26,432 nucleotides of DNA, taken from positions 1 to 26,432 of IMG/VR virus record IMGVR_UViG_3300045918_000014; one strand, written 5' to 3'. The translations under genes and the position numbers were made by a program. The notes below the pieces were generated by a model. That model did no database searches. It saw only the letters and a list, made by a program, of their open reading frames with translations, and was not told the origin of the DNA. Position 1 is the stretch's first letter. Every line of letters begins with the position of its first letter. This document shows, piece by piece, positions 1,573 to 23,600 of this stretch. The DNA comes from a virus.

Positions 1573-1617
1573 ACTACATAGACCCTATAGTCTAACTAAT
1601 TAAACCGAGAGGATTGT

Positions 1618-2163
1618 ATGGAAACAAAGATTATAGAAGAGGCTTTGCAAAGTAAGATTTCAAACATTGAACAGCTCAAGTTTGTCACTAAAGGAGGGCA
1701 GATTCTACGATGGGTTGTAGTGACTATGGCTAATGGATTTGCTGTCACAGGTAAGCCATCATGTGCAGTTGATCCTACTAATGATGATGAAGAGCTAGGC
1801 CAGAAGATTGCTTTGCAGAATGCTATTAATGAAGCATGGATTCTGGAAGGATATGCTCTGAAAGAGAAGTTGGCTAACCCCACATATAATATCAATCCAG
1901 TTCCTGCTCCTACAATGAATATGTCCTTTGGTGACGCTATCACTGCAATGAAACAAGGCAGTGACGTAGCTAGATTAGGTTGGAATGGTAAGGGTATATT
2001 CATATCCCTGCAAACACCAACTGATCAGAGTTATATGACCACTCCTTACATCTACATCGATAGTACTCAGTTACAGACAGACAATCCTGATGCTGTGTTG
2101 AATCGTGTACCTTGGTTCCCATCACAGACAGATTTATTGTCAATGGATTGGTTCATTGTATGA
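1618..2163 (+). CDS. N4 Gp49/Sf6 gp66-like domain fused to DUF2829 (Tad2-like)
   Basis: This 181-residue protein has two domains. Residues about 10-85 match the pattern of the N4 Gp49/phage Sf6 gene 66 family, with the strands VVVTMANGFAVTGKPSCAVDP, then ELGQKIALQNA and WILEGYALKEKL. After a Pro/Asn-rich linker (86-100), residues 101-181 match DUF2829: MSFGDAITAMKQG, ARLGWNGKGIFISLQ, PYIYI and the closing PWFPSQTDLLSMDW. DUF2829 is the family of Tad2, a phage protein that sequesters the signal molecule of Thoeris defence and, in some members, CBASS cyclic nucleotides. Whether this fusion binds a nucleotide is not shown. The start ATG is supported by AGAGG 6 nt upstream (1607-1611). The stop overlaps the next gene (ATGA). 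Confidence 0.8.
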   Translation: METKIIEEALQSKISNIEQLKFVTKGGQILRWVVVTMANGFAVTGKPSCAVDPTNDDEELGQKIALQNAINEAWILEGYALKEKLANPTYNINPVPAPTMNMSFGDAITAMKQGSDVARLGWNGKGIFISLQTPTDQSYMTTPYIYIDSTQLQTDNPDAVLNRVPWFPSQTDLLSMDWFIV

Positions 2164-2407: not shown

Positions 2408-3172
2408 ATGAACGCGCTCACCCTGGATCAGTTCAAACAAGTCCTTCCTGCCAAGATGAAGAAGTCCGTGAACCAAGAGTTATTGGATCGGATTAATTCT
2501 ACGTTAGAACATCCCGAAACCCTCGCCATACTACGGGAGAATATGCTCTCGTACACCCATGTAATTCAGGATGGGCGTTTCAAACTAGACAGTTATGTCA
2601 ACGCAGTCAAATATTGTAGCTTCAAGTTCATGGGAGATACGAACAGGAAAGCATACATCAGAACCTTTCCTGATAAGTACACTCAGTTCATGGCTGATGG
2701 TGTGTCTGAGAAGGACATCGCCAGTTACTACACGGCATACAACAAGAGTAAGTTAGTCACCATGATCATGGAACAGGCTCTGGTTCCTACTCATATCTTG
2801 AATAATCATTTGTACCAGGATGCCTTAAATGTACAGGCTGACCTGATGATGACAGCCACCAGTGAAAAGGTACGATGTGATGCAGCCAATAGTCTGTTGG
2901 TAAATCTCAAACCACCTGAGAATAAGAAGACAGAGATCAATCTTGGAATAGAACAAAGTTCAGTCATCGAGGATTATCAACAGGCCATGGTGTTGATGGT
3001 TAGAAAGCAGAAGGAATTGATCGAAGCCGGTGGTGATCTACTATCTATTACCAACGCTTCCATCAAGAGAGTGGAACAGACTAAAGAAGACAACACTATC
3101 AACATTACACCTGCAAAGCTAATCCCAAGACCTATCAATACAGATACCTCTCCGTTGAATCTGACCCCCTAA
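2408..3172 (+). CDS. putative terminase small subunit
   Basis: This 254-residue, mostly helical protein lies directly before the large terminase gene: its TAA (3170-3172) is followed at once by the next ATG. AGGTAA at 2398-2403 is the ribosome site. The segment around residues 155-165 (EKVRCDAANSLLVNLKPPE) followed by a charged tail resembles the C-terminal half of small terminase or terminase-associated proteins in other large podoviruses. The same slot in N4 holds gp69. The small subunit normally recognises the packaging site and regulates the ATPase. The call rests mainly on position, since small terminases diverge quickly. Confidence 0.6.
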   Translation: MNALTLDQFKQVLPAKMKKSVNQELLDRINSTLEHPETLAILRENMLSYTHVIQDGRFKLDSYVNAVKYCSFKFMGDTNRKAYIRTFPDKYTQFMADGVSEKDIASYYTAYNKSKLVTMIMEQALVPTHILNNHLYQDALNVQADLMMTATSEKVRCDAANSLLVNLKPPENKKTEINLGIEQSSVIEDYQQAMVLMVRKQKELIEAGGDLLSITNASIKRVEQTKEDNTINITPAKLIPRPINTDTSPLNLTP

Positions 3173-4825
3173 ATGTCTAGTTACATAAAGAAGCCAGTTG
3201 AAGACTGGCTTAAAGATCTGGATTACCGATTCATGGGCTATATGCCTTCTGACGAGGCTCTGTTATTTGTCAACTTTATCAAAGAAGTGAATGGTGGGGC
3301 AGAGGAGAACGAAACTCCTTTGGTTCATCTGAAGATGATGGACAATGTATTCAATAAAGAACGTAGATGCGCCATCCTATGTCATCGTGGGATTGGTAAG
3401 ACAACTGTGTTTGCTGAGTATCTGATTCTATTCGTTGCAGCCTTTGGGGTATTCCCTGGTTTCGGCCTGGTCAACTTAATACTGTATGTCACCGACTCTA
3501 TTGAGAATGGTGTTAAGAATCTTAGAAGGAATATCGAATTTCGTTACAATGACAGTTCATTTCTGCAGAAACTCATACCCGACCAACGTATATCTGTGGG
3601 TACAGATGGTGTTGGTTTCGTTGGGACAGATGAGTATGAGAGGCAAGTCACAGCAGGACGTAAGTTCACGGATATCCGGATAGAATTCCGTAACAACAAA
3701 GGTCATATCCTGATTGTAAAAGGGTACGGGTCAAAAACTGGGGTGAGGGGAGCCAAGGAATTAGGTAAACGTCCTACTATAGCTATACTTGATGACCTGG
3801 TTTCAGACACAGATGCAGAATCTCAGACAGTCATCAAGACCATTGAGAATACTGTTTATAAAGCAGTATCCAAAGCTCTCCACCCAACCAGACAGAAGAT
3901 AATATGGCTAGGTACACCATTCAATGCCCGAGATCCTCTGTATAAAGCAGTTGAATCTGGGGCATGGCAGGTAAGCGTATTCCCTATTTGTGAACAATTC
4001 CCTGTTACTGAAGTAGAGTTCCGTGGTTCATGGGAAGATCGCTTCCCATACTCGTATGTGAAGGCTGAGTATGATGAGGCCCAAGCTCTGGGTAAGCCAG
4101 AGAACTTCAACCAGGAGTTAATGCTGAGAATTATGTCTGATGAGGATCGATTGGTTCATGATGATGACATAGTTTGGTGCAAACTCAAGCATATTCTCAG
4201 TAACAAGAATGCCTTCAATTATTACATAACTACGGACTTTGCCACCAGTAAGGAGCAAGCTGCAGATTACTCTGTAATCAGTGTATGGGCAGTGAATTAC
4301 AAGGGTTATTTCTATTGGGTCGATGGCATTTGTGCTCAACAGGATATGTCCCAGAATTTGAAGGATCTGTTTAGATTGGCTCAAAAGTGGAATCCACAGT
4401 CAGTGGGTGTTGAAGTGACAGGGCAGCAAGGTGGTTTTGTCTCTATCATCATGGAGATGATGATGGATAAGAACATCTACTTTACCCTAGCCTCAGAGGG
4501 TAATAAAGGTAAACCTGGGATCAGACCTGTCTCAAATAAACTGGTTCGATTCAATACAATATTACCTAAATTCAAATCAAGAGAAGTATTCTTCCCTATT
4601 GAACTCAAGAACGAGAAACCAATGTTGGAGTGTATGGATGAGTTGAAACTGCTCTCTAAAGCAGGGTTTAAATCCAAGCATGACGACTTTGGTGATAGTA
4701 TTTCACAGTTATCAAGTATGACAATATGGCGTCCAAGTGAACCAGTAACACTAATTGAAAAGGACGGTATTTATGAGTTAGAGGAAGAGGATGAATCCTC
4801 TGTGTTATCTTCCTACATAGTATAA
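3173..4825 (+). CDS. terL: terminase large subunit
   Basis: This 550-residue DNA-packaging motor protein has both activities visible. The ATPase has Walker A CHRGIGKT at residues 70-77, Walker B IAILDD at 203-208 (Asp-Asp followed by the DTDAES segment) and the coupling motif WLGTPFNARDPLY at 245-257. The C-terminal RNase H-like nuclease has candidate metal ligands Asp355 in TTDFATS, Glu414 in GVEVTG and Asp505/Asp508 in HDDFGDSI. It is the equivalent of N4 gp68 by position. There is no clear Shine-Dalgarno, and the start directly abuts the previous stop, so translation is probably coupled. It cuts concatemeric DNA and pumps it through the portal encoded at 9010. Confidence 0.95.
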   Translation: MSSYIKKPVEDWLKDLDYRFMGYMPSDEALLFVNFIKEVNGGAEENETPLVHLKMMDNVFNKERRCAILCHRGIGKTTVFAEYLILFVAAFGVFPGFGLVNLILYVTDSIENGVKNLRRNIEFRYNDSSFLQKLIPDQRISVGTDGVGFVGTDEYERQVTAGRKFTDIRIEFRNNKGHILIVKGYGSKTGVRGAKELGKRPTIAILDDLVSDTDAESQTVIKTIENTVYKAVSKALHPTRQKIIWLGTPFNARDPLYKAVESGAWQVSVFPICEQFPVTEVEFRGSWEDRFPYSYVKAEYDEAQALGKPENFNQELMLRIMSDEDRLVHDDDIVWCKLKHILSNKNAFNYYITTDFATSKEQAADYSVISVWAVNYKGYFYWVDGICAQQDMSQNLKDLFRLAQKWNPQSVGVEVTGQQGGFVSIIMEMMMDKNIYFTLASEGNKGKPGIRPVSNKLVRFNTILPKFKSREVFFPIELKNEKPMLECMDELKLLSKAGFKSKHDDFGDSISQLSSMTIWRPSEPVTLIEKDGIYELEEEDESSVLSSYIV

Positions 4826-20607: not shown

Positions 20608-23600
20608 ATGCCCACACCTATGGACGTATTTACCATACCATCCCAGAGCAAAGCAGATGCATTACAGAGTACCTCTGAAGCGAAAGCTGTTTTGGTATCA
20701 GATATATCAGCACAGAAACGTGCTGATATGTTACAGCCGGTAGAAAACGCGATACAAGACGTTTCCTCTGCTAGTATGGGTGAGGCTATCAATAGCTTGC
20801 GCTCATCTCTTAATTCCTATTACGCTGCACCTTCACCTATTAAGGCTCCCATACACGAAGAAACCCTTATGGAAGCTGCATCCCGAGGTGGGTATGAAGC
20901 TTTGATGGGTGTACCCATGACAGCGGTTGGTTTAGCTGCTGGAGGAGCTGCAATAGGCGAGAAGGTATTTGGTAAAGGTGGATATGCTACGGATCTAAAA
21001 GAATCTGCTGTAAATAGTTATCGCCAGTTTGAAGAAGAGTTAGGTAAGAATTCTCGTCCAGAAGACTCAGCAACCTATTCATATAACCAAGCCAAGGAAG
21101 GGAATCTTGGAGCTCTAATATCATGGGCAGCTCATGGATCAGGATATGTTGGTGCTCAACTTGCTTCTATGCTTGTTGGTGTAGGTATGGTTGAGAAGGG
21201 TGTAGAACTCACTGGTAAGAAGGCAGTGGGTCAACTCATGAAAACATGGGTTGAGAAAGAAGCAGGACTCCTCGCTGGTGAAGCTGCAGTTACACCTGAG
21301 ATCATTGCTCAGGCTACTTCACAAGTAGCTAGTAAGGTGGGTCAGCACATTGGTATGGCTGCTACTGGTTATGGTATGGAAGGTGGTGAGATACTCGGTG
21401 ATCTTGCCTCTAAGACTGTAGGTGCAGACGGTAAGAGCACTGGAGAACTCTCTAATGAGCAGATTCTCAAAGGTCTGGTAGGTACAGGGGTTGCAGGTAC
21501 AATTGAATATGGAGAAACATTACTTGGTTGGAATGCCCTTAAAGGCAAGTTAGGCAAACTCCCTATTAAGAACATAGGTGATATAGATGGTTTAGCCGGC
21601 AAAGCCGTAAGAGCGGGTTTAGGTGGTGCTGAAGTAGCTGTTGCTGAAGGAGCACAAGAGTTCGCTCAAACAGGTGTTGAACAAGTAGCAAAAGGTGATC
21701 CTGTAAACTACACAGAAATGGTAGATGCTGGTTGGCTCGGTGCATTAGGAGCACAACATGCAATTCTCGGTGGAGCAGTTAGTAATTCCTCACGCGAAGA
21801 GCTAGTCAAAAATGTCTTAAAGCAGGCAGACACTTTAGTTAAAGCATCTTCGCAACCTGATCATGTGGAGAAGATCCAAGGTGCAGTAGAGGTTAAAGAT
21901 GTAAGTCAATATGCTGACCCAAAGAATGAGAACTATAATCCAGAAGTAGGTGTGTCAGCTCTCAAAGTAATGAGTGAGCAGAAAGATACTCCTGCCATTG
22001 ATAAAGACTCACACTACAACCAAGCTGTTGCTATCTATAATGGATTACAGGAGAAAGCAAAATCTGTACTAGACTCAGTTGGTAAGGGTGAGACACTGGA
22101 GAAAGATGCAGAAGCCTATGTAGATAAACTCACCCAGATTCGTGTAAACATTGGCCCTATGATACAAGCCATGGGGCCAAAGGGTACTACCTCTCCTGCG
22201 TTGAAACAGAAGCTCCTAGAAGCACAAGATAGTATGGGTGTGAAAGAGGCTATATCTAATATTCTTGGTTCAGATGCTAGAGGTCAAGATATAGAAAGTA
22301 AAGATATCCCTACTGAACAAATACTCAATAATACCAATGTTGATGACAGCACAAAGCAATTGGTTAAAAGTTATCAAGAATTGCTTGATAGTCAGGCTGA
22401 GATAGTATCTCAACGAGAGAAACTAAAACCATCCAATGAGAAAACTACCCTAGAAGTAACTGATAATATATTCAATAGTTCTGGTGAGCAGAAGGGTGTC
22501 AATATGTACATCTCTGCTATTCAGAATGCTGTGACAGAAGGTAAAACTGAAGTTGCACAGAAAGAACTCGATGGTCTTACTGCCTTTGCCGAACAAAAGC
22601 AGCAGAGAGCAACCGACTTCCGTGCTGCTATGAATGGGACTGTACTCCCTGCAAAGTATAACCAAGGCAGGAAGACACCCTATAAAATAACTGGCGCATT
22701 CAAGGATACTGTTAAAGCTATGGAACTGGAGGCAGCAACTCTAGGCAAGGCTGTTGTATTTGGTTCTAACATAGTTGGTTTACCCTCCGCATCAAATCCC
22801 CCCATTGTCTCCTCTTCCCCCGAGAACGTGTCCTCCCCACGTTCTGTCCCCCCAGCCGTTCTCACGGCACAGGCCAGTACAATGTCCTCTACATCCTCCG
22901 CCCGACCTCTGGCCAAGGTTGAGGTAGAGGGTAGTTCTTACAAATTAAGTGATAGCGCCCAACCGGGTGTAGTCAATATAGAGAAGATCTTGACTGGTTT
23001 AAAGCCTGCAGCTATTCAGACTATGCACAGCAATGCAATAGAAGGCACCGCTAAGAAGGTAGTCATAACAGACTTCATGCAACGCAATGGTATTGAAACC
23101 AATACTAATGAATCTATTGCGACAGAGCCTGCGGGCAACAAGGTGGAGCCTGCGACACCGCCAGTTGCAGAGCAGGCGATGGAAGCAGATAAGAATACTG
23201 AACAAACAACACCCCCAACGCCTCTGAATGAGACTAAGCAAGTAAAGGCAAGCGCACCATCTGGGGTTACTTATACTAAATCAACCGAGTCTGCTAATGC
23301 AGCTCAAACCAATAAATCTCAACAGGAGAACCAAGATGGCCAAGGCAAAGGGAACCAAACCAAAGAAGTGCTAAAAACTGAGGAGGGGTCTGCTAATAAA
23401 GAGACTCCTCCTACAGTTGTGTCAAGTGAATCTGACACTAAATCTGTTGTCATTAATGAAACAGGTAAAAGTGATACACAAAGTAATTTGTCGTTAACAG
23501 ATAAGATACAAGCCAATGTCAAAGACATCACAATTAGACAAGACAGGAATGACCTCAGACCAAATGATGCAACTGTGGTTATGGGTGATACAAATAGTAG

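Follow-up and report, generated by a model that had tools for sequence, protein, structure and literature searches.

An Acb4-Tad2 fusion protein of an N4-like phage as a putative sponge for two classes of immune signal

Two families of phage sponge, Acb4 and Tad2, provide the closest described relatives of the protein analysed here. Acb4, the family behind Pfam entry PF13876, is an anti-CBASS cyclic-dinucleotide sponge (Chang et al., PMC11722364; PDB 9E4W). Its SPO1 member (gp1.3) was discovered by a biochemical screen, forms a tetramer, has an affinity of about 157 nM for 3'3'-cGAMP and allows phage T4 to evade a CBASS system, and 3'3'-cGAMP was bound by eight of eight further Acb4 homologues (PMC11722364). 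Phage N4 gp48 is likewise a functional Acb4, being both necessary and sufficient for the triggering of Panoptes, which senses loss of a cyclic dinucleotide (PMC12657230), and hence acts on cyclic nucleotides in cells. The ligands of the Tad2 family vary and include gcADPR, His-ADPR and cyclic dinucleotides. HgmTad2 and SptTad2 bind cyclic dinucleotides besides ADP-ribose signals (PDB titles; review PMC12043709), and the cyclic-dinucleotide site has been ascribed to a long insertion that separates beta2 from beta5 (PMC12043709). RyR/RyDEP is an anti-Thoeris domain that degrades or sequesters cADPR signals (PMC13232231). SPO1 carries Acb4 and Tad2 in separate genes (PMC11722364).

At the locus described here, the two sponge families meet in one reading frame. 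The window, meaning the whole stretch of DNA that was analysed, is the 26.4-kb IMG/VR record IMGVR_UViG_3300045918_000014. Its Acb4-Tad2 fusion gene (1618..2163, plus strand), delineated by open reading frame, Pfam matches and AlphaFold2 model, runs from an ATG to a TGA, encodes 181 amino acids and is preceded by a Shine-Dalgarno-like AGAGGA that can be read directly from the sequence (1608..1613, +); its antisense contains many stops in the corresponding frame. An N-terminal Acb4 domain (residues 1-86; 1618..1875, +), assigned by Pfam, fold match and position in the Acb4 tree, is joined by a linker (residues 87-100; 1876..1917, +), where pLDDT dips to about 57 with a confident domain on either side, to a C-terminal Tad2 domain (residues 101-181; 1918..2160, +), assigned by Pfam, fold match and invariant motifs. 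Pfam recognizes Phage_gp49_66 (PF13876) at residues 23-85 with 56.8 bits (E 3e-15; cut-off 27) and Tad2-like (PF11195) at residues 102-181 with 73.5 bits (E 2e-20; cut-off 25); NCBIfam holds no model for proteins of these kinds. Purpose-built HMMs scored the ORF at 107 and 124 bits (E 7e-33 and 4e-38), as compared to 4.5 and 9.3 bits for the best of 2000 protein shuffles, and an HMM made from relatives of the window's Acb4 domain with SPO1 excluded recovered SPO1 Acb4 (E 7e-12). By PDB sequence comparison the C-terminal part matched SPO1 Tad2, SptTad2, HgmTad2/AcrIIA7 and ModTad2. The original prediction of a DUF2829 (Tad2-like) C-terminal domain is thereby confirmed, with the motifs lying where it had placed them. 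Its N4 Gp49/Sf6 gp66-like N-terminal domain is also borne out by the PF13876 match, but the accompanying description of that family as one of no known function does not stand, as the family is Acb4. Since no Shine-Dalgarno-like site was seen on inspection ahead of the ATGs that lie internally where the domains meet, one polypeptide is expected. An artefact of single-contig assembly was ruled out by fused homologues in other phage records and in bacterial contigs, and the recurrence of such homologues equally rules out a lost stop codon.

An AlphaFold2 model of the fusion, built from 125 sequences, has a mean pLDDT of 89 and predicts two confident domains with a weak joint at about residues 90-100, the Acb4 domain lying mostly at 95-98. 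Residues 5-83 of the model match SPO1 Acb4 (9E4W) with a Z of 9.3 and an rmsd of 2.4 over 74 residues; unrelated PDB entries for this domain come next, none above Z 8.0. They include dsRBDs, whose chains reach Z 6-7, in agreement with the resemblance of Acb4 to dsRBDs described in the literature (PMC11722364). Residues 99-181 are predicted to adopt the Tad2 fold, matching SPO1 Tad2 (8wje; Z 9.4, rmsd 2.2, 72 residues, 43% identity), ModTad2-hisADPR (9eib; Z 9.3) and HgmTad2/AcrIIA7 (8kbi; Z 9.1), so that profile and predicted fold both favour the Tad2-type anti-defence role suggested originally. Every residue that is invariant across an alignment of 69 relatives is retained in the Tad2 domain, with the GWNGKG and W-x2-SQTD-x4-DW motifs among them; R119, G121, W122, N123, G124, G126, W166, Q170, D172 and D177 are each present in 100% of those 69 rows.

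We propose, as the probable reading of sequence and model, that the protein is a sponge of two specificities, with Acb4 directed at CBASS signals and Tad2 at Thoeris signals. The Acb4 domain would sequester the cyclic dinucleotides that CBASS produces, along with signals of a similar sort, the Tad2 domain would sequester ADP-ribose-derived signals from Thoeris TIR proteins, and neither would degrade its ligand. As both families form homotetramers with pockets between protomers, four chains of the fusion, each with a flexible linker some 14 residues long, could assemble into one complex that carries pockets of either kind. Being fused, the two sponges would be held at a 1:1 ratio and delivered by one small gene, which would presumably protect the window's phage from defence. 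The two domains would also complement each other, because the window's short Tad2 domain (about 80 amino acids, vs 104 in HgmTad2) is without the extra length of the insertion linked to cyclic-dinucleotide binding. The earlier idea of a ligand sponge joined to a second activity or partner is thus upheld as regards two domains, the second activity most likely being a second sponge, Acb4.

The Acb4 domain is where this proposal meets a challenge. Comparison with ten SPO1 Acb4 ligand contacts (K36, F48, E49, V56, Y57, F62, N63, I66, T70 and K81) indicated by alignment that only F48 is kept in the window (as F41), together with a conservative replacement of I66 (L60), while K36, E49, V56, Y57, F62, N63, T70 and K81 are not; N4 gp48, a working Acb4, is also without K36, E49 and Y57 and retains F62 and N63. 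The beta3-alpha4 loop of the window's domain carries a one-residue insertion and, where SPO1 has the aromatic F62, an Asp. Its subfamily was delineated by subfamily searches, as querying viral contigs with the N-domain as a single sequence gave no matches and the broad Acb4 alignment held too much diversity for pattern search. This subfamily has a loop of the form G-[KR]-P-S ... N-D, one residue longer and without the pocket aromatic. Conceivably, then, only Tad2 works, and a divergent Acb4 domain without a pocket serves as oligomerisation scaffold or binds another molecule, e.g. RNA. The replaced aromatic, the extra loop residue and the dsRBD topology with its Z 6-7 matches would fit such an arrangement, which we nevertheless regard as unlikely: Asp occupies the pocket-loop position in 61% of 71 Acb4 rows, and retention of the ND-type loop throughout the subfamily suggests maintained function over decay, as does the fact that Acb4 genes of the window's type still adjoin Tad2 or RyR genes. 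From these substitutions we infer that ligand preference has changed in the window's Acb4 subfamily; its ligands might be other than CBASS signals, and the ND-type domains may bind a different signal. Conversely, both domains could take the same kind of signal, such as cyclic dinucleotides, and the protein could be a sponge of one system only, given that HgmTad2 and SptTad2 accept these ligands too (PDB titles; PMC12043709). The compact window Tad2, with nothing of the beta2-beta5 type of extra length, makes this improbable in our view.

Genomic setting bears on a further explanation. By sequence, the window's phage is an N4-like schitovirus (Schitoviridae), since TerL is 57% identical to that of Vibrio N4-like phages, the portal is 54-56% identical to those of Klebsiella phage Pylas and Salmonella FSL SP-058/076, and the gene order from terminase to the giant ORF at 20608 is as in Pylas. 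The fusion gene lies 244 bp upstream of, and on the same strand as, the gene in small-terminase position (2408..3172, +), which matches phrog_2109 (no named function) and occupies the same place upstream of TerL in Pylas; the large terminase, identified by PHROG match and identity, follows (3173..4825, +). This position directly before the terminase is what a virion or packaging role would draw on, but relatives are found at varying sites (next to lysis genes or to the gene for the virion RNA polymerase, behind the major capsid gene, on contigs of bacterial genomes) and Pylas has the same packaging module without the fusion gene, so that we consider such a role very improbable. The original prediction also found the place beside structural genes notable; it appears less so, as the Alcaligenes schitovirus QDWS595 uses the same slot before TerS, in the order DUF2829 - gp06 (Acb4 family) - TerS - TerL, and the N4 gp48-gp49 pair adjoins the virion RNA polymerase gene. 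The N-terminal part of the DUF2829 (Tad2) protein of QDWS595 is itself Acb4-like but diverged (PF13876 at 28.5 bits, against a cut-off of 27). Equally remote is an AcrIIA7-type anti-CRISPR function of the Tad2-like domain. AcrIIA7 does belong to the Tad2 family (8kbi, 9kzr), and Tad2-type and Acb4-type genes of Escherichia phage Huey are annotated as anti-CRISPR; AcrIIA7 structures, however, were solved with 1',2'-cADPR and cGG (8kbj, 8kbk), fitting a sponge, and the fact that an Acb4 gene bears the label too suggests a transferred annotation.

Several other elements flank the fusion gene. Directly upstream are a DUF6011 (PF19474) protein matched by Pfam (1012-1413, +) and a 103-nt element (1423-1525, +) with a perfect 15-bp terminal inverted repeat (GTTTAGTCTATCCTG), which as RNA folds at -56.3 kcal/mol (z -7.7) and has no Rfam family; Rfam detected no family anywhere in the window, and a promoter scan was at chance level. 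A 51-aa frame (2160-2315, +) overlaps the fusion's stop codon (ATGA), with no evidence of being a gene.

Domain identity, fold and the recurrent fusion or adjacency of Acb4 and Tad2 are established. A survey of how often the two domains are fused returned 15 distinct Acb4-Tad2 proteins (at 60% identity), with Acb4 first in every case, from Pasteurella phages, viral contigs and contigs of Ruminococcus, Psychrobacter, Moraxella, Neobacillus, Campylobacterota, Oceanospirillaceae and Verrucomicrobia. By parsimony the fused label changes 9 times on the Acb4 tree and 13 times on the Tad2 tree, at least 4 and at least 7 changes, respectively, being forced by well-supported branches; these counts do not separate gain from loss, and the Tad2 tree rests on few columns. 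The fusions probably arose in several events. The window's own looks like a separate one, because its Acb4 domain falls, with 94/97 support, into a subfamily that is otherwise unfused among the sampled members. At 80 loci chosen by this subfamily, none was fused; Tad2 was the immediate neighbour, in either order, at 13, lay further off at 4 and was not found within the stretch covered at the remaining 63. For a test of linkage we used viral loci chosen by Acb4 alone, with near-copies removed, as 369 bacterial genomes yielded only three PF13876 matches, which was too few. The 53 loci contained 13 Tad2/RyR domains, all 13 on the same strand and 10 of them within 400 bp, where uniform placement would give 2.1 (p < 5e-6). 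Starting instead from Tad2, PF13876 was found in 4 of 50 records, fused in one and within about 1.4 kb in three. The association is thus specific in place but not universal.

Tad2 is not the only partner of Acb4. Through a structural neighbour we reached NW77_088 of Erwinia phage phiEa2809 (L411:38228-39061, minus strand), in which profile matches reveal Acb4 (E 6.5e-12) fused to RyR (PF02026; E 8e-10); it has counterparts in 104 phage records at a coverage of 80% or more, mostly annotated as hypothetical and including those of Salmonella phages Marshall and Maynard (47% identity). Acb4, Tad2 and RyR genes are neighbours in three viral contigs (L397, L423 and L443), in one of which the three overlap within 1 kb (L423:1241-2233). 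A further component is SWSP, an uncharacterised domain of about 70 amino acids that forms the N-terminal part of N4 gp49 (L405:3372-3605; also in L109, L114, L045 and others), has the pattern YIGTKxxNAxPM...GYLVEYxDGG...GYxSWSPKxxFExAY and recurs as a fusion partner of Tad2, of Acb4 and of RyR. SWSP-Tad2 accounts for 65 ORFs, near-copies counted, and other architectures are Acb4-SWSP, an arrangement interrupted by RyR before Acb4, and SWSP-Acb4-Tad2, the last as a 294-aa open frame in a Verrucomicrobia MAG (L194:5719-6600). SWSP has no Pfam model and no solved structure related by sequence, a fold search returned a list taken up by Tad2 entries, and profile-profile comparison gave no common ancestry between SWSP, Tad2, Acb4 and RyR. 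Going by which stretches of their profiles were matched, PHROG 872, 9467, 18865 and 4435 seem to represent SWSP-Tad2, SWSP-Acb4, SWSP-RyR and Acb4-RyR, respectively. We tentatively suggest that phages may put together their counter-defence proteins from a kit of a few nucleotide-signal modules, namely Acb4 (anti-CBASS), Tad2 and RyR (both anti-Thoeris) and SWSP; the window's protein would be one such combination and SWSP a new signal-binding or assembly module. Separately, we observed proteins with two Tad2 domains in tandem on contigs of Clostridia and Tyzzerella (L176:5764-6237 and L177:5767-6261) and a frame in which Acb4 precedes a crAss001_48-related domain (PF21825; L326:3863-4429).

Both domains were already known; the two-sponge fusion and the combinatorial kit are new within the literature searched, where neither was found described, and a fusion with Tad2 was not found in the preprint version of the Acb4 paper (PMC11722364). 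Sponges of one domain that act against CBASS and Thoeris alike are known as well, and the same breadth is here apparently reached by repeated fusion of two sponge families. If so, one small gene could disarm two signalling immune systems. Fusion partners may then offer a route to new counter-defence domains, SWSP first, and phrog_872, phrog_9467, phrog_18865 and phrog_4435, all filed as of unknown function, become testable anti-CBASS or anti-Thoeris genes.

Set against the known systems, the window's protein has in common with SPO1 gp1.3 and N4 gp48 the Acb4 Pfam family and, in residues 5-83, the predicted dsRBD-like fold, but these are single-domain proteins, whereas the window's has the Asp for the aromatic, the additional loop residue and an added Tad2 domain. 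Its C-terminal domain agrees in family, predicted fold and invariant motifs with SPO1 gp34.65, ModTad2, HgmTad2/AcrIIA7 and SptTad2, although SPO1 Tad2 stands alone. N4, of the same phage family, likewise brings Acb4 and Tad2 domains together, yet does so through overlapping genes for two proteins, of which gp49 bears the extra N-terminal SWSP domain. A like layout is found in Pasteurella phages Pm86 and Pmp13, with a single ORF of Acb4-Tad2 order and 35% identity over the full length; their domains belong to other Acb4 and Tad2 subfamilies, and the gene of Pm86 (185 aa) is located in the lysis region. NW77_088 of phiEa2809 (Ackermannviridae) also fuses an N-terminal Acb4 to an anti-Thoeris domain, its partner being RyR/RyDEP (PF02026), a different family from Tad2.
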